This document shows, in pieces, positions 32,113 through 47,978 of a stretch of DNA of 47,978 nucleotides (positions are counted from its first letter, which is position 1; every line of letters starts with the position of its first letter). A program made the translations under genes and the position numbers. The notes beneath the pieces are model-generated. The model did no database searches. It worked only from the letters and a program-made list of their open reading frames with translations, and had not been told where the DNA came from. The stretch is from a virus, in IMG/VR virus record IMGVR_UViG_3300034631_000075, positions 1 through 47,978 of that record. One strand, given 5' to 3'.

Positions 32113-32727
32113 TTACCTCACGTCAACCGATTCGAAACCGACATAGTGGATTACCCTTGGAGCATCGTTCCAAGGCTCAGCCGAGCGGCACGGCCCGGTC
32201 ACGTCCCAACCGACGAGACGCCCCTGCAATCGACGCTGCAGATCCTTCAGCGCCTCCCACCAGGTCACATATTGCATGCGGATCAGATCTAGATCGCTCG
32301 GCATGTAGCCCTGATAGATGTACTCCCAGCCGAGCAGGCCCCGACATTGTGCCGGATCCTGCCAGCGCTTCTTGTGGTTGCCTTTGCGATCAAGCACCGG
32401 CACCCATTGGCCGATGCCATCCTCACCCCACTCTATCGGCGCCATGCTGCGCCCAGCGGCGACCACCAATGCGGCCGCCTCGATCGGCAACGCATCAATG
32501 GCTGCTGCAACTCGCTGTGCGTCCGGTGACACTTTATGCGAGGAGCTGCCGCCACCATCCACCCGGGTACCCATCGACAGATAGGCCTCCACCCGTTCCG
32601 TTGCCGACATGCCACCCGCCAACTGGCGCAACTCCCTGGCAATGCCACTGCCCCGGCTGACATCGGCATGCTGCTTGGCCAGTGCCCACACCACCAAGTT
32701 CTCTATGTCGATCTTAACCTTAGCCAC
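32113..32727 (-). CDS. Unknown protein at the early/late boundary; candidate late regulator
   Basis: The 204-residue protein starts at a GTG with AGGAG eight bases upstream (an ATG at 32763 lacks one). I recall similar sequences in alphaproteobacterial prophages: VAKVKIDIENLVVWALAKQHAD, ALPIEAAALVVAAGRSMAPIEW, then GQWVPVLDRKGNHKKRWQDP and LLGWEYIYQGYMPSDLDLIRMQYVTWWEAL. No function is known to me. Being last in the early operon and directly before a terminator matches the place of lambda Q, so a late activator or antiterminator is a hypothesis. Confidence 0.7.
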   Translation of the reverse strand: MAKVKIDIENLVVWALAKQHADVSRGSGIARELRQLAGGMSATERVEAYLSMGTRVDGGGSSSHKVSPDAQRVAAAIDALPIEAAALVVAAGRSMAPIEWGEDGIGQWVPVLDRKGNHKKRWQDPAQCRGLLGWEYIYQGYMPSDLDLIRMQYVTWWEALKDLQRRLQGRLVGWDVTGPCRSAEPWNDAPRVIHYVGFESVDVR

Positions 32728-32744
32728 GGCGTCAGCTCCTCTTA

Positions 32745-33095
32745 GAGGGTTAAGAGGTTCCATTCTGACCCTCTCTCGAAGAAAAGAAGAACAGAACCAT
32801 AGGGATAAAGAGGGAGAAGAGGGTGCAGAGGGTGGCCTATAGCGCATAGGTCGAAAGGCACACCCCCAGACCCCCTTCCATATATAGACGAGCATGAACC
32901 CTCTCGACCCTCTCAATTTCAGGGTAAGCCATTGTTTTTGCTGTTGTAATCGGACGCAGAGGGTTGCACTTCACCCTCTCGCAAATCTCTCGACCCTCTA
33001 TCGCAGCGCGCGAGCGCTGAGAGGGTCGAGACTTCTGCTTTTCTGTTCTGGTGAGGGGGTGCGGGGCGCGGCGCGGGTGGCGATTCGCCACCCTC
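32745..33095. repeat. Array of GAGGGT/ACCCTC repeats, candidate origin or operator
   Basis: This gene-free stretch (32728-33127) holds 11 copies of one hexamer: GAGGGT at 32745, 32819, 32828, 32959 and 33021; ACCCTC at 32768, 32898, 32907, 32973, 32993 and 33090. Extended copies read (T)CGACCCTCT. Chance would give well under one. AT-rich patches (TATATAGACG near 32880, ATTGTTTTTGCTGTTGTAAT near 32940) lie between copies. Iterons next to a helicase gene suggest a replication origin; a regulator array for the next gene is the alternative. Confidence 0.75.
32991..33028. repeat. Cruciform-like inverted repeat in the array
   Basis: Arms CGACCCTCT (32991-32999) and AGAGGGTCG (33020-33028) enclose CAGCGC (33004-33009) and GCGCTG (33014-33019) around a GCGA loop. 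The outer arms are two iteron copies facing each other. No T-run follows, so it is not a normal terminator. Confidence 0.65.
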
Positions 33096-33127
33096 TATGG
33101 CCATCCTCTTGGCGAGGTCAGGCCTGC

Positions 33128-34960
33128 CTAGAAGCCGGGATCACTAGGGTCGCGCGGAGGAGGTTCGCCAATGCCGGTGGCGCGGCCGGGGACATCGCGC
33201 AGGCGCACATCGAGATAATAGTAGAAGGCGCCGCGCTGCTTCTTGAAGCCGAGGTCGTTGAGCCGGTCGCCGAAACTGCGCTGGGTGGCAGCGCGCATGC
33301 CGTTTGCCTTGCACCAGGCCTCATAAGCCTCGTAGACCTGCCCGGCTTTCACCTTCTCTTTTTCGACGTGCTCGATGCAGGCCTCGGCAAACACACCGAC
33401 ATTGTCGCGCTCCTCGCGATAGTCCTGGGCGAAGGCCTTGGCCTCGGGTGGCGTGTAGTAGTCCAGCCCATTGGTGAGGTAGAGCAGTGCGCCCTCGATC
33501 AACCAGTTGAGCACGCCCGATCGCTCGGCATCGAGCTTGGCCGCCAAGAGGGTCGGCGCCATGCGCTCCCCCTCAGGGATCCGAACGCCCCAAAGGACGA
33601 ACAGGAAGCGGCGCCAGATACCTTCATCGGAGCCCGAGATTGCCGGCTTGTTGTTGCCCGAGAGCATGGGCGTAAACTGCGGCATGAACTCGAAGAAGTC
33701 CTTGTTGAGGAAGCGCGCCAGAATCTTGGTGCCGCCGGTGAGCGCCTTGATCAGCTCCTCTTTTAGCGGCGTGTTCTTGGGCAGCTCCTCGATCGTCACC
33801 AGGCGTGCATTGTGCAGCCGAGCGATATCGGGGTTGGCCTGCTGGCCAGTGCGCTGCCCGTCGCCCGTGATGGTTTCGGGCGAGGCGATCTGACGATAGT
33901 CACCGGCGAGGCGACCGATCAGCTCGAAGAAGGCCGACTTGCCGTTGGCGCCGGTGCCGTAGTGATAGAACAGCCGCTGCTCGTCATTGCCACCGAACAA
34001 CAGGGCAACAGCCGTGGCCACCTGCAGGAAGGTGCGCCAGCGTTCTTCCGGTTGCACCTTGGTCAGGAACACATCCTCGAAGAAGGTCCGATCGGCATCG
34101 GCGTGATACTCGACCTCAGCCATCTTGGTGATCAGGTCATTACGATCATGGGGACGGAACTCGAACCGGCCGATCTTGCGCTCGCCGCCTTCGGGTTGGT
34201 CTGGATCCAGCTCGCGCCAGAAGCGCAGCGTGCCATTGGCCAGGTTGAACAGCATGTGGTCGGCGTCGAGCTTCTCGATCGCCAGCGATTTCAGGGACTG
34301 CGCCTGCTGCAGCATCGCCGTGGTCTTGCCGGCATTGCCTGAGGTCACCGCCCAGGAGCGGCGCGAAGATCGCTTCTTGCTCAGCTGCTTGCGGACATCG
34401 ATCGCCTTGGCCATGACGTTGCGATCGGCGGCAGTGATCTTGTCGTCATCTTTGGCCATCGCGTCTTTGGCCAGGTCGAGGATCCGCTTCTGCGGGTCAG
34501 TTGCCTCGATCTCGAATGCCTCGAGCTTGATCTTGTCGACGATCTCCTGGGCGAGCAGGCGCACATAGAGGTCGGCCTCATCGCGCAGCCAATGGGTGCC
34601 GCGCCAGACGAGCCAGCCTAACCCTGTGACATAGACCAGGTGATCGCCGAACCAGGCGACCAGGCGCCGACCATTGTCGCGATCGTTCTGGTCCATGGCG
34701 GCACACCAACGGATGATGATGCGCTCGTTCTCCGAGATCCCGTCCGGCGGCCCGCCTTCACCATCATCATCGACTTGGGGGATGTCATCATCGTCCGGAC
34801 CCGGATCGTCGGGATCCTGCGCCGGCGGCGCTTCAGCCTTGGGCTTGGCTTCGTCCTTGCCGCCATCGATGACCTTGAAGTCGGCCTTGATCGGCCGCTT
34901 CTTGTCCATGGCAGTTTTGACGGCCTTCTTCTTGTCGTCGTCGTCGGGTGTATCAGTCAC
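33128..34960 (-). CDS. Replicative helicase, P4/D5-type superfamily 3
   Basis: The 610-residue protein has an acidic N-terminal tail (DPDDPGPDDDDIPQVDDDGEG), a D5_N-like domain and an SF3 helicase domain with Walker A GTGANGKSAFF near residues 335-345, RLVTIEELPKNTPLKEELIKALTGG and ARFLNKDFFEFMPQFTPMLSGNNKP. It has no primase domain of its own; the separate CHC2/Toprim gene supplies it. The start GTG overlaps the previous stop (GTGA); a GTG five codons earlier is possible. Confidence 0.92.
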   Translation of the reverse strand: MTDTPDDDDKKKAVKTAMDKKRPIKADFKVIDGGKDEAKPKAEAPPAQDPDDPGPDDDDIPQVDDDGEGGPPDGISENERIIIRWCAAMDQNDRDNGRRLVAWFGDHLVYVTGLGWLVWRGTHWLRDEADLYVRLLAQEIVDKIKLEAFEIEATDPQKRILDLAKDAMAKDDDKITAADRNVMAKAIDVRKQLSKKRSSRRSWAVTSGNAGKTTAMLQQAQSLKSLAIEKLDADHMLFNLANGTLRFWRELDPDQPEGGERKIGRFEFRPHDRNDLITKMAEVEYHADADRTFFEDVFLTKVQPEERWRTFLQVATAVALLFGGNDEQRLFYHYGTGANGKSAFFELIGRLAGDYRQIASPETITGDGQRTGQQANPDIARLHNARLVTIEELPKNTPLKEELIKALTGGTKILARFLNKDFFEFMPQFTPMLSGNNKPAISGSDEGIWRRFLFVLWGVRIPEGERMAPTLLAAKLDAERSGVLNWLIEGALLYLTNGLDYYTPPEAKAFAQDYREERDNVGVFAEACIEHVEKEKVKAGQVYEAYEAWCKANGMRAATQRSFGDRLNDLGFKKQRGAFYYYLDVRLRDVPGRATGIGEPPPRDPSDPGF

Positions 34961-35949
34961 TCGCAGGCACCCCACGCAGTACAGCTGGTGCCCATGTCCG
35001 CGAGGAGCAGCTCGTACTGCTTGCCACCCCGCCCAGTCCGGCTCCAGTCCACCACTGCGCGCACGTTGGGTGAAGGAAGGCTCAGATCCAGTTTGTGTGG
35101 CCCGGGTGTCTTGTCATGCGAGAAGAAGCTGGAGACACCCCGCTTGGCCACCGAGCCGACAATGGCCTCCCACTCCTCGAGGCGATCTATCGCGCCGGGG
35201 AATCGTTGGGCGATCGCAAGCAGCTCATCCTTGCTAACCATGATGCAGGGGAAGCAACCGACGCGGTGCATGCCGTTGTCGTAGAGAGGATTCCACTCGA
35301 TGCCGTGTCGGGTGTGGAACTCGAACACCTCATGCGTGAGCCATGCGATGAGCGGCCGATAAGCAAAGGCGCGCCAGCCCTCAGCGAGAGCATGGATCTT
35401 CTTCGGCATACTGTACGGCACCGGATTCAGGCGCTGCCACTTCGGCAGATCCGCCCGAGCCAAGCTCTCCTCTGCTCGGACACCCTGCCATGAGATCAGA
35501 GTGAGGCCAGCCTCCAGCAGAGGGCGCTGGACACCGACAAACATCGGCATGATCTTCAGGAAATCGGTGCAGAAGCGTCGACCAGAGGAAGGGAACCGAC
35601 CCTTCATCATGCACAGGTCGAGGAAGGGATTGCCGGTGGGATGCAATAGCTCGACCGCCCGGTCTACCTGCGCTTGCGGCACTCCTTCTGCCGGCCAAAC
35701 CCTCGACATGTACTCCCGCTTGCGAGCCATATCGGTCGAGAAATCAGCTTTGACCCAAATCGGCTCTGGGCCACCAGTTTTGCCCGCAAGAGCGCGGACA
35801 AAGTCGTAAGTCCATTCATGTTCGTGGCCCGTATCAGCGAACACGGCGATGAAGTCGCGGCCGGTGCGCTCCCGGCGTTCCATCGCCAGAAGGTAAGTGG
35901 CAGTGCTGTCCTTGCCTCCCGAGACGGAGACGACATGTTCCCAATTCAC
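34957..35949 (-). CDS. PAPS-reductase-like (DndC-related) protein
   Basis: The 330-residue protein has the ATP pyrophosphatase P-loop SGGKDS (residues 10-15), VFADTGHEHEWTYDFV, and three cysteine patches (LDLCMM/FCTDFLK, VGCFPCIMV, SCTAWGACE) that could bind an iron-sulfur cluster. Similar phage proteins are common, and DndC of DNA phosphorothioation belongs to the same superfamily. Substrate and role are not known; a part in DNA modification or sulfur metabolism is possible. It is coupled (ATGA) to the primase gene. Confidence 0.85.
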   Translation of the reverse strand: MNWEHVVSVSGGKDSTATYLLAMERRERTGRDFIAVFADTGHEHEWTYDFVRALAGKTGGPEPIWVKADFSTDMARKREYMSRVWPAEGVPQAQVDRAVELLHPTGNPFLDLCMMKGRFPSSGRRFCTDFLKIMPMFVGVQRPLLEAGLTLISWQGVRAEESLARADLPKWQRLNPVPYSMPKKIHALAEGWRAFAYRPLIAWLTHEVFEFHTRHGIEWNPLYDNGMHRVGCFPCIMVSKDELLAIAQRFPGAIDRLEEWEAIVGSVAKRGVSSFFSHDKTPGPHKLDLSLPSPNVRAVVDWSRTGRGGKQYELLLADMGTSCTAWGACE

Positions 35950-37133
35950 GCGCTCACCCTCACCAGGTCATTGAGGTCCTTGCCGTCGCCGATCGGCTCG
36001 ACGAGTGCGCATTCGAGTGCCAGCAGCGCGGTATTCGTAGAGCGCGCCTGCTCGCGCGACGCTTGGGCGCGAGCGAGGCCACGCGTCACCTTCTCCACTG
36101 TCTTGGTCTCCGGCTCGTCGCTGTCGCAGAGATAGACGAGCTCGGTGCACCAGTCGGGCGGCAGGAAGCAGTCGGTATCGTCGAGATCCGGCCGCTCTTC
36201 GTGCCGGTGGTTCTCGATATCGCGATAGGCCTTGCCGGCCATGTTGCCGAGGTCGACGCCGGCCCAGTAGGCAGTGCCCGGCTCGAAATTGTGCGCCATG
36301 GCTGTGAGCGTGGTTTCGATCCCCTCGCCCATGACGATGCGGTGCACGGTCTTGGGGGTGTAGAGCCGGATGGCGCCACCCTTCTTGGAGCCGCGCACCT
36401 TCTTGGCAGGCAACTGCAGGGGCGCGCCCTTTTCGAGCTTGGTCGGGTGGGTCAGCGCCACCTTACCTTTGGGGTGATCGAGGTCGAGCCAGGTCTGGTG
36501 CACGGCGCCAAAGCTGTTATTGGGCAGCACCACGGCGGCGATCATGGCCGGACCGGAATGGATAGTCTCCCAGCGGCGGCGCTCGCCATCGGTGACTTCG
36601 ACGACATAGTCGAGGCTGGCGACCTCCCGCAGGCCGATCTTGTCGAACTTGAGCGATTCCGGCAGGCCGCGCAGCTGCAGGTACCGCGCAACGGCGCCGC
36701 CCGGCTGCGGTTCTGCCGAGCGGTTCCAGACAGATAAACCTTCAGAGATCGCGCGCAGCCGGCGCTTTTCTTCCTCAGCCGCTCGCTCCCGCTCACGCTG
36801 CTCGGCAGCCAGGGCGATGCGGGCCACTTCTTCGGCCGAGATCGGATCGGCGACCGTGCGCCCAGTGATGAGCTCGCAGGCTTGGACGAAGCCGACCTTG
36901 TCGGTTTTCATCACCAGGTCGATGACGCCACCGCCGGCGAGGCCGCACTGGCGACAGTTGAAGGTGTTCTTGCCGGTGTGAATGGCGAACCGATCGGTGC
37001 CACCGCAATTGGGGCATGGACCAGCTTTGTCGAGCCCCGGCCCGAGCTTCCAACCCTTGAAGTTGGCCCAGCTCCAACAGGTGACGGCCAACGCGTCTTG
37101 CTTGAGGCTTTCGAGTTCCGGCGGCAGGCTCAT
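35946..37133 (-). CDS. DNA primase with CHC2 zinc finger and Toprim domain
   Basis: The 395-residue protein has a four-cysteine zinc finger (C40, C43, C60, C63 in CPNCGGTDRF ... NCRQCG), a charged helical linker, and a Toprim domain (IVMGEGIETTLTAM near 270, LVYLCDSDEPE near 345). It should make RNA primers for phage replication with the helicase two genes downstream. Start and stop overlap the neighbours by four bases (ATGA). Confidence 0.92.
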   Translation of the reverse strand: MSLPPELESLKQDALAVTCWSWANFKGWKLGPGLDKAGPCPNCGGTDRFAIHTGKNTFNCRQCGLAGGGVIDLVMKTDKVGFVQACELITGRTVADPISAEEVARIALAAEQRERERAAEEEKRRLRAISEGLSVWNRSAEPQPGGAVARYLQLRGLPESLKFDKIGLREVASLDYVVEVTDGERRRWETIHSGPAMIAAVVLPNNSFGAVHQTWLDLDHPKGKVALTHPTKLEKGAPLQLPAKKVRGSKKGGAIRLYTPKTVHRIVMGEGIETTLTAMAHNFEPGTAYWAGVDLGNMAGKAYRDIENHRHEERPDLDDTDCFLPPDWCTELVYLCDSDEPETKTVEKVTRGLARAQASREQARSTNTALLALECALVEPIGDGKDLNDLVRVSA

Positions 37134-38060: not shown

Positions 38061-38440
38061 GATCGACCCTCGATCCGCGCCTGCGCTTCCACATCGAGCA
38101 GCGCGTCCAGCAGGCTTCCTGCCGGTGATTGCGCGACCTCGACGATCTTGCCCAGAAGGTTGACCTCGCCTCGCGACATGGCGCTGCTGAGCTCCGTGAG
38201 CGTGGCGCCGCGCTGCAGGGCAATCGAAACGATGATGCCGATATCGTGCCAGAGCCCGATCGAACGCTCGCTGCGCCGGTTCTCGCAATTGACGAACACT
38301 TCGCCGATGCGGCCGTCGGGATAGCGGCTATAGCTGACGATCATGGTCTCGACCTGCTCGGCTGCGGTGCCACGGCTATGGTAGTGATCCACCAGCAGCG
38401 TCTCGCCCTCGCGCCGCTCGGGGAGCTTCTCGCGGCTCAT
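38057..38440 (-). CDS. TSCPD-like domain protein
   Basis: The 127-residue protein has GRIGEVFVNCENRRSERSIGLWHDIGIIVSIALQRGATLTELSSAMSRG, which fits the TSCPD domain at the C-terminus of B12-dependent ribonucleotide reductases, and a short N-terminal LPERREGETLLVDH motif. Stand-alone copies are common in alphaproteobacterial prophages as I recall, with no known function. A tie to nucleotide pools is conjecture. Confidence 0.72.
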   Translation of the reverse strand: MSREKLPERREGETLLVDHYHSRGTAAEQVETMIVSYSRYPDGRIGEVFVNCENRRSERSIGLWHDIGIIVSIALQRGATLTELSSAMSRGEVNLLGKIVEVAQSPAGSLLDALLDVEAQARIEGRS

Positions 38441-40269
38441 TCAGCAGCCTCCTGCAAATTGGCAGCCGCTCCTGGACCGTCATAGGCCTTGCTGCGCAGC
38501 GCCACCGGCAACCAGCCATGCTCCATAGCAAGCTTGGCAGTAGTCGCAGCCATGTCTGCCTTCTTGCCGTCTTTGATGGCCTCGCCGGTGATCTCCTTGA
38601 AGGCCGCCGCGATCAGCGGCTTCTTGACCCCCTCGAAGTAGGCGATCGTGTCGAACTCGGGGAAGTCGCGTGGTTCGACGATCTCAACCAGTTCTTCGAT
38701 AAGGCTTCGCTGTGTGGCAGCCCCCATGTATTTCGAGCCGAGGAAGCTGTCGGAAACGTCGACCGAGTTGGCGAACATGCGCGCGATCGACGCGAGCAGC
38801 GTCTCATCATCCATCTCATCGAAGTAGCGGAAAGCCTCAGTGATCCCGTGCTTTGAATCCGCCGTGCGGCCTGCCGTGGCATGGCCGAGCGACATGTGCG
38901 CCGGGAGCTGCTTGCCGTTTTGGCTGGCTGCCATGAACGCGGCCAAAAGCGGAAGCGCCAGATCAGGGTCAGCTCCGATTTCGGTCCGAAGTGAATCCGA
39001 TAGAGCAAGCGACAGTGTCTGGGACACGTTGGCTCCAACGGCCGCGGGGTCCTCTGGGGGTAGCTGTTGTTTCTTGCCAGTTTCCGGTGCCCCGGCCGGT
39101 TCTGCTCCAGCTTTGGCGGTGTCGATGACACCAAAGACGGCTTCGCCATTGGTGTAGTAGACCACTCCGGAGCCAGCCTTTTCCTCGGCGGTGAACATCG
39201 GCAGGTAGCGCGCGCGGATTGTTTCGATCTCCTTCGCCAAAGCGGTATACTCGGCGCGCTGCTCGGCTGTTGGCTCAGCATCGCCGGCGGCATCCTCCAT
39301 TTCATCGATCGCTGCTTCTAGGGCATCACAGCGGGCCTGATCGGCTTCGCCAAGCGCGGGTGTTTTTGGGTAGTGCCGACGGTAGTTCCAGATGTTGGAA
39401 TACTCACTTTCGTGAGCCACCCATGCCCAGCCGTCAGCAAGCCAGGCGGCCTCTTGTTCGGCGAACCGCTCGCGAGTGAGGCGCTCGACGATATCCCCGC
39501 TGGTCCAATAGACCAGCTCGGCGAACAGATCGGTCACGATCTCACCGCCAGCTGCAACATATGCCGTTTCGCCGATCAGCTTGGCCAAAGGCGAGGTCGC
39601 AGCTAGGTGCGTTTCCGTCATGGCATGACGAATGTCCCGCGGCTGCAGCAGCCAGGTCCGCTGGCTTTCTATGGCCTCCCGTAGGTAGGCGGCTTGCCGA
39701 TCCGGATCGGACTGGACCGTGAACGCAGCGGCGGCATCGAGGGTGATCTTACCCTCCTCGAGCGCGTGCAGAATGTCCGGGTGTAGTGCTGCGAGCTTTA
39801 GCCGCTGCTGCACTCGACGGATCGGAACGCCGAACCGCTCGGCAACTTCATCGACACTCTTGCCTTCGGCATGTACCCGAGCAAATGCGCGGAACTCGTC
39901 GACTGCAGACACTGGTACCCGCTCAACATTCTCAACGACGCTCAGCTCGTGTGCCGCCGCATCGTCGATCACACCAGCGATCACCGGGACCGAGTAATCT
40001 GGCTCGATCTTGCCCTCGTTGAGGAGGCCCTGCAGCGCGAGGAGCCGGCGGTTTCCGGCGATGACCTCGTAGTGAGTGTTGTCAGCAGCCAAGCGAACGC
40101 GCAGCGACTGGACGACACCATGCGCAAGGATCGACGCCTTGAGCTCGTCTAGCGAGGTATCTCGGCCGGTGCGGCGGGCATTGATCGCGTCGCCGGAGCG
40201 CAACTGGTTGAGCGGCACCGTCTTGCTGATTGCCTGGGGCAAGCAGGCGCTTTTTTTCTTCGCGCTCAT
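38437..40269 (-). CDS. ParB-family protein
   Basis: The 610-residue protein has a ParB/Spo0J N-terminal domain (SKTVPLNQLRSGDAINARRTG, GVVQSLRVRLA, YEVIAGNRRLLAL, ELSVVENVERVPVSAVDEFRAF) and a helix-turn-helix (KSVDEVAERFGVPIRRVQQRLKLAAL at about 135-165). The long C-terminal part (residues 200-610) is not recognised. Such phage ParB-like proteins may partition plasmid-like DNA, bind origins or nick DNA. No ParA gene is present. Confidence 0.88.
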   Translation of the reverse strand: MSAKKKSACLPQAISKTVPLNQLRSGDAINARRTGRDTSLDELKASILAHGVVQSLRVRLAADNTHYEVIAGNRRLLALQGLLNEGKIEPDYSVPVIAGVIDDAAAHELSVVENVERVPVSAVDEFRAFARVHAEGKSVDEVAERFGVPIRRVQQRLKLAALHPDILHALEEGKITLDAAAAFTVQSDPDRQAAYLREAIESQRTWLLQPRDIRHAMTETHLAATSPLAKLIGETAYVAAGGEIVTDLFAELVYWTSGDIVERLTRERFAEQEAAWLADGWAWVAHESEYSNIWNYRRHYPKTPALGEADQARCDALEAAIDEMEDAAGDAEPTAEQRAEYTALAKEIETIRARYLPMFTAEEKAGSGVVYYTNGEAVFGVIDTAKAGAEPAGAPETGKKQQLPPEDPAAVGANVSQTLSLALSDSLRTEIGADPDLALPLLAAFMAASQNGKQLPAHMSLGHATAGRTADSKHGITEAFRYFDEMDDETLLASIARMFANSVDVSDSFLGSKYMGAATQRSLIEELVEIVEPRDFPEFDTIAYFEGVKKPLIAAAFKEITGEAIKDGKKADMAATTAKLAMEHGWLPVALRSKAYDGPGAAANLQEAAE

Positions 40270-41150
40270 TCTGCCGCCTCCATTCCGAGTGCAGCGTCGG
40301 GGCCCGACATGCGCTGTGGAAACGCTTTGTCGAGAGCCTCCCCGATCTCAGCCGACGCGATGTCGTGGCGTGAAATCCCTGTATAGCCCTGCCGCCGCTT
40401 TACTTTCACGTACTCCACGGCCCGGTCCAGGGCGCTGTAGAGGTCGAAGTCGTCGATGAATGACGAGAGATCTACTTCGGCTTGGACCAGCCAAGGGCGG
40501 TCAACAACTGCCATGAACCAGGGCTTCAGAATCTCATTGGAGTACGCCTCAGGAGATTGCCCAAACTCCGAGCGACGGATGCCGGAGAGTGCTGCGGTCA
40601 CAGCTTTGGAATGGCCACCGTCAACCAGCTGGCGGACTAGCGCCACGCAGAAGACTTCCCCGAAGTTCTTGGTTTCGGAAGCCTGGTGATAAGTCATCAG
40701 TCGGCATCCGGCGTCAGCACAGGCTTGTTGGGCTGCGAGAGCCCAAGGTTCGCCTGCAGCCAGAGCTGCCTTGAAAATCTGGAACAAAGTCACCTTTGTT
40801 ACTGTGCCGTTAACGGCGGCGAAGCTCGCGGCCTGTTCTGCTTGGCTCATATGCACAACTTGGCACGGCACCTCCTCAAAGCCGCACAGCGCTGCGGCAT
40901 GGGTGCGGTGTTGCCCATCGATGATCGCAAATTTGCCGCCGGCGACCGGTGCAACGAACACCGGCGAAAAGCGAGACCACTGAAAGTGTTCGGCGATATT
41001 GCGGATCGCGGTCCAGTTGGCGCGCTTGAGATCTCTCTGATAGCTGTCATCGACAACAAGGTCAGCGACTTTGATCCACTGCAACATCGGCGCAGGACCA
41101 GGGCTCACTGCCCCCGGCACTTTCTGCCCGGCGACGTCAATCAATCTCAT
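40266..41150 (-). CDS. DGQHR/ParB-like domain protein
   Basis: The 294-residue protein has LVVDDSYQRDLKRANW, KFAIIDGQHRTHAAALCGFEEVPCQVV and AEQAASFAAVNGTVTKVTLFQIFKAAL. IDGQHR is the hallmark of DGQHR and ParB-like proteins, DndB among them. The rest is helical and not recognised. It forms a coupled pair with the large ParB gene. Confidence 0.8.
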   Translation of the reverse strand: MRLIDVAGQKVPGAVSPGPAPMLQWIKVADLVVDDSYQRDLKRANWTAIRNIAEHFQWSRFSPVFVAPVAGGKFAIIDGQHRTHAAALCGFEEVPCQVVHMSQAEQAASFAAVNGTVTKVTLFQIFKAALAAGEPWALAAQQACADAGCRLMTYHQASETKNFGEVFCVALVRQLVDGGHSKAVTAALSGIRRSEFGQSPEAYSNEILKPWFMAVVDRPWLVQAEVDLSSFIDDFDLYSALDRAVEYVKVKRRQGYTGISRHDIASAEIGEALDKAFPQRMSGPDAALGMEAAE

Positions 41151-44134: not shown

Positions 44135-44800
44135 ATGGCAAGTGAAGAAGTTGAGCGCGTTCGCGAGCTCATCAAGGCGAACAACTTGAATATGAAGGCG
44201 GTTTCGGTGGCGGCCGGGCTGGGGGAAACCTATGTCCGCGATATGCTCAAGCGCGATCGACAGCCCACCATCGAGAACTACAGAAAAGTGATCGATGCGA
44301 TCGCCCGGCTAAGCGGCCGAGTTCAACTGGATCCGCCCCCCACCGAAGTGACGCCGGCGGACCTCGAGCGCCCCTACCGAAACCAAATGACGCGCGACGT
44401 GGACGTCCTCGGGGCCGCTGCAGGCTCGGACCTAGCTGCAGGCTCGTTCCAGTTTTCTATGGATCCTATCGACCGGGTCGCGCGGCCACCAGGTCTCGTC
44501 GGAGTAAAGGGCGTCTACGCGGTCTTCGTAGAGAATGACTCCATGTACCCCATGTACCATGCGGGACAGCTCGTCTACGTCAGCCGGCACCGACCACCAG
44601 CGCCTGGTGACACGGTGGTCATTCAAAACATCAGCGAAGATGCTGACGATTTCTCGGGCTTTATCAAGGTCCTGGTAAGGCGCACGGCCGAATGGGTCGA
44701 GTGCAAGCAGTTCAACCCCGAAGGCCCTCTCAAGTTTCGGAACCACCCCGGCCTTGTGCTTCATCGTGTTTACACGACGAACGAGTTGTTCGGTCTTTAG
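44135..44800 (+). CDS. CI/LexA-type phage repressor (HTH plus S24 peptidase)
   Basis: The 221-residue protein has an XRE-like helix-turn-helix (NMKAVSVAAGLGETYVRDMLK, residues 19-39) and a C-terminal S24 domain with catalytic S136 (VENDSMYPMYHAGQ) and K178 (FIKVLVRR). An Ala-Gly cleavage site may lie at LGAAAG (92-97). DNA damage should trigger RecA-aided self-cleavage and induction. It maintains lysogeny by binding the TGGGC/GCCCA operators on both sides. It converges with the next gene (4-base overlap). Confidence 0.92.
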   Translation: MASEEVERVRELIKANNLNMKAVSVAAGLGETYVRDMLKRDRQPTIENYRKVIDAIARLSGRVQLDPPPTEVTPADLERPYRNQMTRDVDVLGAAAGSDLAAGSFQFSMDPIDRVARPPGLVGVKGVYAVFVENDSMYPMYHAGQLVYVSRHRPPAPGDTVVIQNISEDADDFSGFIKVLVRRTAEWVECKQFNPEGPLKFRNHPGLVLHRVYTTNELFGL

Positions 44801-46649: not shown

Positions 46650-46915
46650 GCTCGAAGCTGGCAGCATCGGAGATGCCGTACTGGCCTGCCGCCATGACCC
46701 AGCAGATGGCGGCGGCATATTGCGGCCTATCGGTGGACACCTTCACTGAAGTCTGCCCGGTTGTCCCCATAGTTATCACCAAGTCCAAGACGGGAAAGCG
46801 CTACTTGCGAACCCGGCTGGACGAATGGTTGATCTCCCTTGACAATCCCGGCCCGGCGAAACGCCAGGGCATGGGAGCAATGTGGCGTGGCAAAAGTGAA
46901 GCTCAGAGGGCTTAA
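46646..46915 (+). CDS. Excisionase-like DNA-binding protein
   Basis: The 89-residue protein has a MerR/AlpA-like helix-turn-helix (YWPAAMTQQMAAAYCGLSVD, then GKRYLRTRLDEWLISLD). Such proteins direct the integrase to excision. It precedes the integrase, overlaps its start by 29 bases and overlaps the preceding stop by four. Confidence 0.75.
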   Translation: MSSKLAASEMPYWPAAMTQQMAAAYCGLSVDTFTEVCPVVPIVITKSKTGKRYLRTRLDEWLISLDNPGPAKRQGMGAMWRGKSEAQRA

Positions 46916-47978
46916 CATCCGCCGGAACAAGGTCGGGAAGTGGTACGCCTCTCTTCGTGCTACCGGCAAACTGCTGGCAACTGCCAACAGCCGGGAAGAA
47001 CTCGACGCCGTGATGAGCGGAGCCTCCTTTCTCCATTCCTACGCCACCGCCGAGCGCAAGCGACAGAAGGTCTATGCATCTGGAACTTTCGGCGCGCTTA
47101 TAGAGCGATACCGTACCAGCAAGGTGTTCGGCGAACTCGCCGCCCGCACCCAGGAAGACTACCGCAAGGTCCTGCTGTTTCTTGACCGTTGGTCCGATTA
47201 TCGCGCCGAAGATATCGAGACCGTGGATGTCGTCGAGGTGCGCGACATCGCCGCCGAGGAAAAGGGCGACAAGTTTTCCGACTTCGTAGTTGCTGTCATG
47301 TCGAACATCTTCCGCGAAGCCATGGAAAAAGGGCTGATGAAGTCCAATCCGGCTTTGGGCGTCCGGAGACTCTACAGAGCTAATAAGGATGCCAACCGTC
47401 GGTGGTCCGAGAAGGAATGGGTGAAGGCGTTTGTGGCAGCCCCTCCCCATCTGCGCGGTGTCCTCGCGATAGCCAAGCATTGCGGCTTGCGCGGCCAGGA
47501 CATCGCCGCCCTCACCTGGGAGAACTACCGCGATGACGCCGACATGGGTCGAGTCCTGGCGCTCACGCCAAAAAAGAACGGCGACAAGGTCGGCGAGATT
47601 ACGATCGGTGTCCCCGCCGAGCTAAAAGCGGTGCTCGACAAAATGAAGGCCGGAGACGGGGTGGTGCAGCCAGCAAGCAACGCGCCCATCTGCCGTAACA
47701 GTCTCGGGAAGCAATATCCCACCGAAAACGCAATGCGCAAAGCCTGGCAGGACTTCAAGGCGTCCGATGCTTTTACAACGGCACTACCCAACAGCGGCGA
47801 CCTGACCCTTCATGGTTTGCGGGTGACCTTCAGCAGCGAGCTGCGCGAGGCCGGCTTCTCCGATCGGGAGGTCGCGGACATGCTCGGCGATCTGTCCGAG
47901 GGCATGGGAAAGCGTTACAGTCGGGGCGCTGAGATGCGCAAAACAAGCGTCCGCGTCTTCAAGAAACTGGCTCAATAA
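46887..47978 (+). CDS. int: Phage integrase, tyrosine recombinase
   Basis: The 363-residue protein has an N-terminal arm-binding part, a SAM-like core-binding domain (FGALIERYRTSKVFGEL, about 65-85) and a catalytic domain with R202 (HCGLRGQDIAALTW), Lys in LTPKKNGDK, H309 and R312 (LHGLRVTFSSEL), Asp335 at the place often held by His (DMLGDLSEG) and nucleophile Y344 (GKRYSRG). The GTG start was chosen at VAKVKLRGLN; a TTG 16 codons upstream opens the frame. It should insert the phage into the host chromosome. The stop is the last base triplet of the window. Confidence 0.93.
   Translation: MAKVKLRGLNIRRNKVGKWYASLRATGKLLATANSREELDAVMSGASFLHSYATAERKRQKVYASGTFGALIERYRTSKVFGELAARTQEDYRKVLLFLDRWSDYRAEDIETVDVVEVRDIAAEEKGDKFSDFVVAVMSNIFREAMEKGLMKSNPALGVRRLYRANKDANRRWSEKEWVKAFVAAPPHLRGVLAIAKHCGLRGQDIAALTWENYRDDADMGRVLALTPKKNGDKVGEITIGVPAELKAVLDKMKAGDGVVQPASNAPICRNSLGKQYPTENAMRKAWQDFKASDAFTTALPNSGDLTLHGLRVTFSSELREAGFSDREVADMLGDLSEGMGKRYSRGAEMRKTSVRVFKKLAQ

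Follow-up and report, generated by a model that had tools for sequence, protein, structure and literature searches.

In this study, we describe an array of short repeats in a temperate phage and propose, by analogy with characterised systems, that it is the replication origin, which would be bound by the C-terminal winged helices of the adjoining helicase, open at an AT-rich segment and be served by the neighbouring primase; we put the probability of this reading at roughly 0.84. A replication origin had been one candidate of the original prediction for this segment, and it is now supported by the helicase-linked conservation of the array, by homologous phages whose annotated origins occupy the equivalent position and by a predicted winged helix that resembles an origin-binding domain. 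An iteron origin next to its own helicase gene is of a kind already known from other mobile elements, and the part that may be new is a strictly conserved bulged DNA hairpin. What computation established is the presence and conservation of the array, the way it co-varies with the helicase and the predicted fold of the putative binding domain.

The window, by which we mean the whole analysed stretch of 47,978 nucleotides, is a viral record, and we regard the phage as temperate because it encodes a repressor with peptidase S24 and HTH domains (44135-44800) and an integrase (46839-47978). On the minus strand, genes for a methyltransferase, two ParB-like proteins, a small protein, the primase, a PAPS reductase-like protein and the SF3 helicase precede the array, and a small gene with no known function follows it, together with genes for a minor-tail-like protein, the small and large terminase, portal, protease and major head protein, so that the array separates the early replication operon from the packaging genes. 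The helicase matches D5_N (PF08706, 9e-20), Pox_D5 (6e-9), DUF5906 (4e-8) and phrog_1156, and the primase gene is present in nearly all loci with enough flanking sequence. The PAPS-reductase-like gene (34957-35949) lies between the primase and helicase genes, and a relative is also found near the primase of Rhizobium phage RR1-A. The features of the region are:

35946-37133, minus strand: primase with zinc ribbon, Toprim-like, the partner gene
33128-34975, minus strand: SF3 helicase of the D5_N / DUF5906 / Pox_D5 family, proposed initiator, probable start near 34960
33200-33418, minus strand: C-terminal winged-helix domain of the helicase (residues 520-592, recognition helix at about 565-574), from domain matches and predicted structure
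32744-33096, no strand assigned: iteron array with 11 AGAGGGT in both orientations, proposed replication origin, from repeat counts and retention in relatives
32988-33031, minus strand: hairpin whose arms are iterons, interrupted on one side by the 4-nt bulge CGAY, from covariation in relatives
32958-32979, no strand assigned: second pair of inverted iterons, AGAGGGT and ACCCTCT, flanking a short loop
32914-32957, no strand assigned: AT-rich segment in which CAACAGCAAAAtCAAT (minus strand) is conserved, a candidate for the unwinding element
32871-32913, minus strand: core of tandem iterons 9 bp apart, then TATATA and a G-rich run, kept in relatives
32818-32833, plus strand: opposed tandem iterons, 9 bp apart
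32739-32756, no strand assigned: iteron in the near-palindrome CTCTTA-GAGGGT-TAAGAG, just before the downstream gene

Eleven GAGGGT/ACCCTC copies in both orientations had been predicted at 32745-33095, right after the SF3 helicase gene and with AT-rich patches among them, and all three points held: the hexamer occurs 41 times in the window, with exactly 11 occurrences in that interval, and the noncoding gap (32728-33127) that contains the array of about 350 bases starts, in minus-strand reading, directly 3' of the helicase stop codon. We take the repeat unit to be the heptamer AGAGGGT rather than the hexamer, because the 5' A is present on 11/11 array copies. The heptamer is found 14 times in the window, compared with 4.0 +/- 1.6 (maximum 8) in dinucleotide shuffles, and 11 of the 14 lie within 32744-33096 in both orientations; when 14 points were placed at random in 200,000 runs, never more than five fell inside 353 bp. 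Two tandem iteron pairs (32818/32827 and 32898/32907) share a 9-bp spacing, and this register is extended by the near-copies AGAGGTT at 32753 and AGAGGGA at 32809. The element between the iteron groups is 64% AT (columns 171-210 of alignment A4, 17 relatives) versus 38% for the window, and the 60-bp segment with the highest AT content anywhere in the window (32750-32809) also falls in the array stretch but outside the central core. A core-like element is present in phage A2 and in L060, which is 39% identical, and by inspection some hairpin form of the inverted pair at 32958-32979 is kept in relatives. In addition, two conserved runs, CCCCGCACCCCC (33050-33070, before the hairpin on the minus strand) and GGGGGTGTGGGG (32860-32880, after the core), are nearly complementary and could serve long-range pairing or form a G-rich element. 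GC skew showed no clear switch at the array site.

About 20 related sequences, both viral contigs and prophages of Devosia, carry the same array 3' of the helicase gene; some relatives sit in Devosia genomes, and 10 of 75 Devosia genomes carry a relative of the helicase. In 15 helicase relatives taken with their flanks, the gap after the gene aligns throughout and the iterons occupy matching positions. All relatives examined have the array after the helicase gene, and the sole displacement is in L010, which was considered as an array-less relative and then ruled out, the intact array being found about 1.4 kb farther on, behind inserted genes that include one antirepressor-like gene. A small gene and an antirepressor-like gene separate the helicase gene from the array both in L010 (6839-8160) and in RR1-A (L041, 4656-6457), and the same insertion pattern thus arises in distant phages. 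The iteron itself changes by clade, with most copies changing together:

AGAGGGT: the window, L002-L004, L012, L015, L016, L021 and L056
AGACAGT mixed with AGAGGGT: L006, L008, L009 and L011
GGACNGT/GGGAGGT: L005, L010, L013 and L014
CGAGGGT: L018, L032, L057 and L058
CGACCGT: L059
TTGCGGGT, its 7-mer core present 14 times: L060

Such concerted change of scattered copies is as expected if one shared sequence-specific protein binds them all. A search of the array DNA against isolated phages gave no match, and a limited literature search found no description of the array sequence.

The position of the array, at the very junction of the early replication operon with the packaging genes, and the near-palindromic iteron just before the next gene would also suit a regulatory region at which a phage protein on the repeats activates packaging and late genes and silences the early operon. 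We consider this improbable, since a search for a sigma-70-like promoter and a terminator found neither, the downstream gene varies among relatives while the array persists, and in named phages the array stands before quite different genes or, in RcapNL, at the genome end. The counterpart of the near-palindrome in L015/L016 is CCTCTTAGACCCTCTAAGAGG, and their version is a perfect palindrome, CCTCTTAGA-CCC-TCTAAGAGG; the protein that binds the array could, through this palindromic iteron, control downstream genes too.

The hairpin at 32988-33031 pairs over 18 bp, closes with a 4-nt loop and carries a 4-nt bulge on one side, and its DNA fold has an energy of -20.6 kcal/mol (z -5.4). An alignment of 14 sequences gives 238 cells over 17 pairs, every one of them Watson-Crick and none G-U, and 9 of the 17 pairs show double-sided changes while none shows a one-sided change; slid controls reached at most 60% pairing. 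Over 18 distinct hairpins, a single G-U was found in 325 pairs, located in the alternative fold of L056, and the bulge CGAY is constant in nearly all of them. A compound hairpin or cruciform had been predicted at 32991-33028, of which the iteron arms stood and the covariation proved real; the structure is slightly longer and better called a bulged hairpin. Compensatory changes of this strength would favour a structured RNA, either a leader or a small RNA with the repeats as helix arms, but we regard this as very unlikely. RNA helices normally tolerate G-U, and its near-absence therefore points to selection on the hairpin as DNA rather than RNA. Direct-repeat copies outside the helices also change in concert, and Rfam gave no match at the gathering score, only sub-threshold ones. 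Two inverted binding sites account for the outer stem, yet the inner stem is not an iteron and still covaries, which suggests that the hairpin itself forms. We tentatively raise the possibility, which we hold to be somewhat doubtful, that this hairpin, with its bulge and iteron arms, acts within the origin as a DNA structure, extruded in single-stranded form and recognised in that form for loading of the helicase or for priming. If true, it would be a structural origin signal undescribed for D5_N-helicase replicons, and the hairpin allows testing whether origin DNA structure, beyond sequence, is selected.

Arrays of other sequence but the same plan, with iterons in both directions and an AT-rich core, follow the homologous gene in Rhodobacter, Aurantimonas, cyanobacterial, Bacillus and Mycobacterium phages. 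Among named phages with homologous helicases, picked by similarity as a sample rather than a census, ten carry the most frequent 7-mer of their locus 3' of the helicase gene. It follows the gene immediately, in both orientations and with mostly different sequence, in RcapNL, AmM-1, Pan4, A2, phi105, Taquito, the Methanoculleus virus, Sc-Yong805-1 and Pthi1 (under short annotated ORFs in the last two), and in RR1-A it comes two genes later, behind the antirepressor. By simple count, the most repeated 7-mer of R4C, RcRhea and Sfi21 lies outside the gap adjoining the helicase gene; RcRhea has 9-bp repeats in a later gap, and the Sfi21 gap holds opposed GTAACT-type repeats around an AT-rich core. 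The gap after the helicase gene is annotated as rep_origin in the A2 record and as 'origin of replication, 302 bp non-coding region, phage inhibitory sequence' in that of Sfi21, and a passage in a later article cites the Sfi21 element as a replication origin giving phage resistance in multicopy (PMC6356513). In Mycobacterium phage Taquito (L047, 3360-3590), about ten GGGGACA, often 10-12 bp apart and in both orientations, follow the primase/helicase gene; on this sequence the stretch is likely an origin, and it is un-annotated as such in the part of the record covered. These observations suggest that an iteron array after a D5_N helicase gene is a general origin marker, by which origins would therefore be predictable in many phages.

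The neighbourhood also bears on a packaging start, that is, a pac or cos region recognised by the small terminase, whose gene is about 1.4 kb away. The array of Rhodobacter phage RcapNL (L040, 4662-4982) abuts the cohesive end of the genome, where origin and packaging site may be neighbours. A packaging role is nevertheless highly unlikely here, as the annotated origin and cos of Sfi21 are about 6 kb apart and it is the helicase gene, and not the terminase, that the array accompanies.

As to which protein reads the repeats, comparison of the loci suggests that the iteron tracks the helicase, and best its C-terminal domain, rather than the downstream gene or the ParB-like proteins. L018 keeps a 96% identical downstream (32113-32727) protein and an 82% identical smaller ParB-like protein but has a helicase of only 51% identity and the iteron CGAGGGT, a pattern that aligns the array with the helicase side; the 32113-32727 product, which had been suggested as a binder, is disfavoured by this locus. 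The helicase of L015/L016 is chimeric, resembling the GGACNGT group in alignment columns 161-220 (77-81% versus 47-49%) and the AGAGGGT group in columns 581-640 (67% versus 47-58%), and the iterons of these loci are AGAGGGT. Across 17 loci, iteron distance correlated with the winged helix at 0.54 versus 0.40-0.50 for other segments, a modest margin, and linkage may explain part of this co-variation since the helicase C-terminus adjoins the array on the DNA. That the array is instead a centromere or spreading site of a ParB-like protein from the same operon, an earlier option prompted by the two ParB-like genes upstream, is scarcely credible given the smaller protein and different iteron of L018 and given that, in records that may be incomplete, the larger protein (38437-40269) has a homologue in 1/12 related records and the smaller (40266-41150) in 3/12, L018 among them, so that, in contrast to a parS site conserved jointly with its ParB, the array occurs without ParB homologues in most records.

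The helicase C-terminus has the features of a DNA-binding domain, matching Pox_D5 in 18/18 cases and the Cdc6 winged helix in 16/18. The full-length model reached a pLDDT of only 46, and the C-terminal domain of the window's helicase was remodelled alone for comparison, being predicted as a winged helix with a pLDDT of about 90 over the core. The origin-binding domain of phage P4 (1ka8) aligned with this prediction at Z 9.6 and an rmsd of 1.9 A over 77 residues with 21% identity, and the best-ranked solved phage origin binder is a member of the same helicase superfamily. Other top matches were the RFX DNA-binding domain on DNA, the C-terminal domain of a D5-like primase-helicase and the Orc1/Cdc6 winged helix on origin DNA. 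A fold in common with the P4 domain need not mean a common function, and the binding of the iterons by this domain is putative.

We infer binding, melting, hairpin extrusion and origin activity, taking binding, opening and replication from SaPI Rep, Cch2 and P4. The SF3 (D5_N-type) helicase encoded immediately upstream would bind AGAGGGT through its C-terminal winged helix and assemble on the two opposed iteron clusters, melt the AT-rich segment beside them and then unwind outward, after which the primase of the neighbouring gene would prime. The iteron-armed hairpin probably forms on strand separation and may aid loading or priming. The array provides a concrete candidate origin for a group of temperate phages with relatives in Devosia, and about 20 aligned origins in which iteron and initiator C-terminal domain vary together make a recognition code of D5_N helicases directly testable.

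Phage P4 alpha is a primase and a helicase fused in one protein. Its system, with ori/crr iterons, is similar to ours in having an SF3 helicase with a C-terminal origin-binding winged helix (here a predicted fold), but the primase (35946-37133) and helicase (33128-34975) are separate genes in our phage and the iteron sequences differ. The Sfi21 and A2 origins likewise combine a homologous helicase/primase with a noncoding gap right after it, bidirectional repeats and an AT-rich core, whereas their repeat sequence, base composition and spacing differ and an equivalent hairpin is not established there. A precedent is the D5_N helicase Cch2, whose C-terminal domain binds direct repeats situated 3' of the gene for this helicase, and SaPI Rep behaves in the same way (PMC7581432). 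Both SaPI Rep-ori and the putative SCCmec Cch2 origin thus resemble our system in having a self-loading helicase, D5_N-like in Cch2, with short iterons directly 3' of its gene (PMC7581432). Their iteron sequences are unlike those described here; moreover, the Cch2 region has three iterons and inverted repeats that are dispensable for binding, whereas 11 iterons, facing either way, make up our array, which also includes a bulged hairpin that is strictly conserved. In the manner of an iteron origin of a self-loading SF3 (D5_N) helicase, the region combines an adjoining D5_N gene, downstream repeats, an AT-rich element and a C-terminal winged helix of predicted fold.
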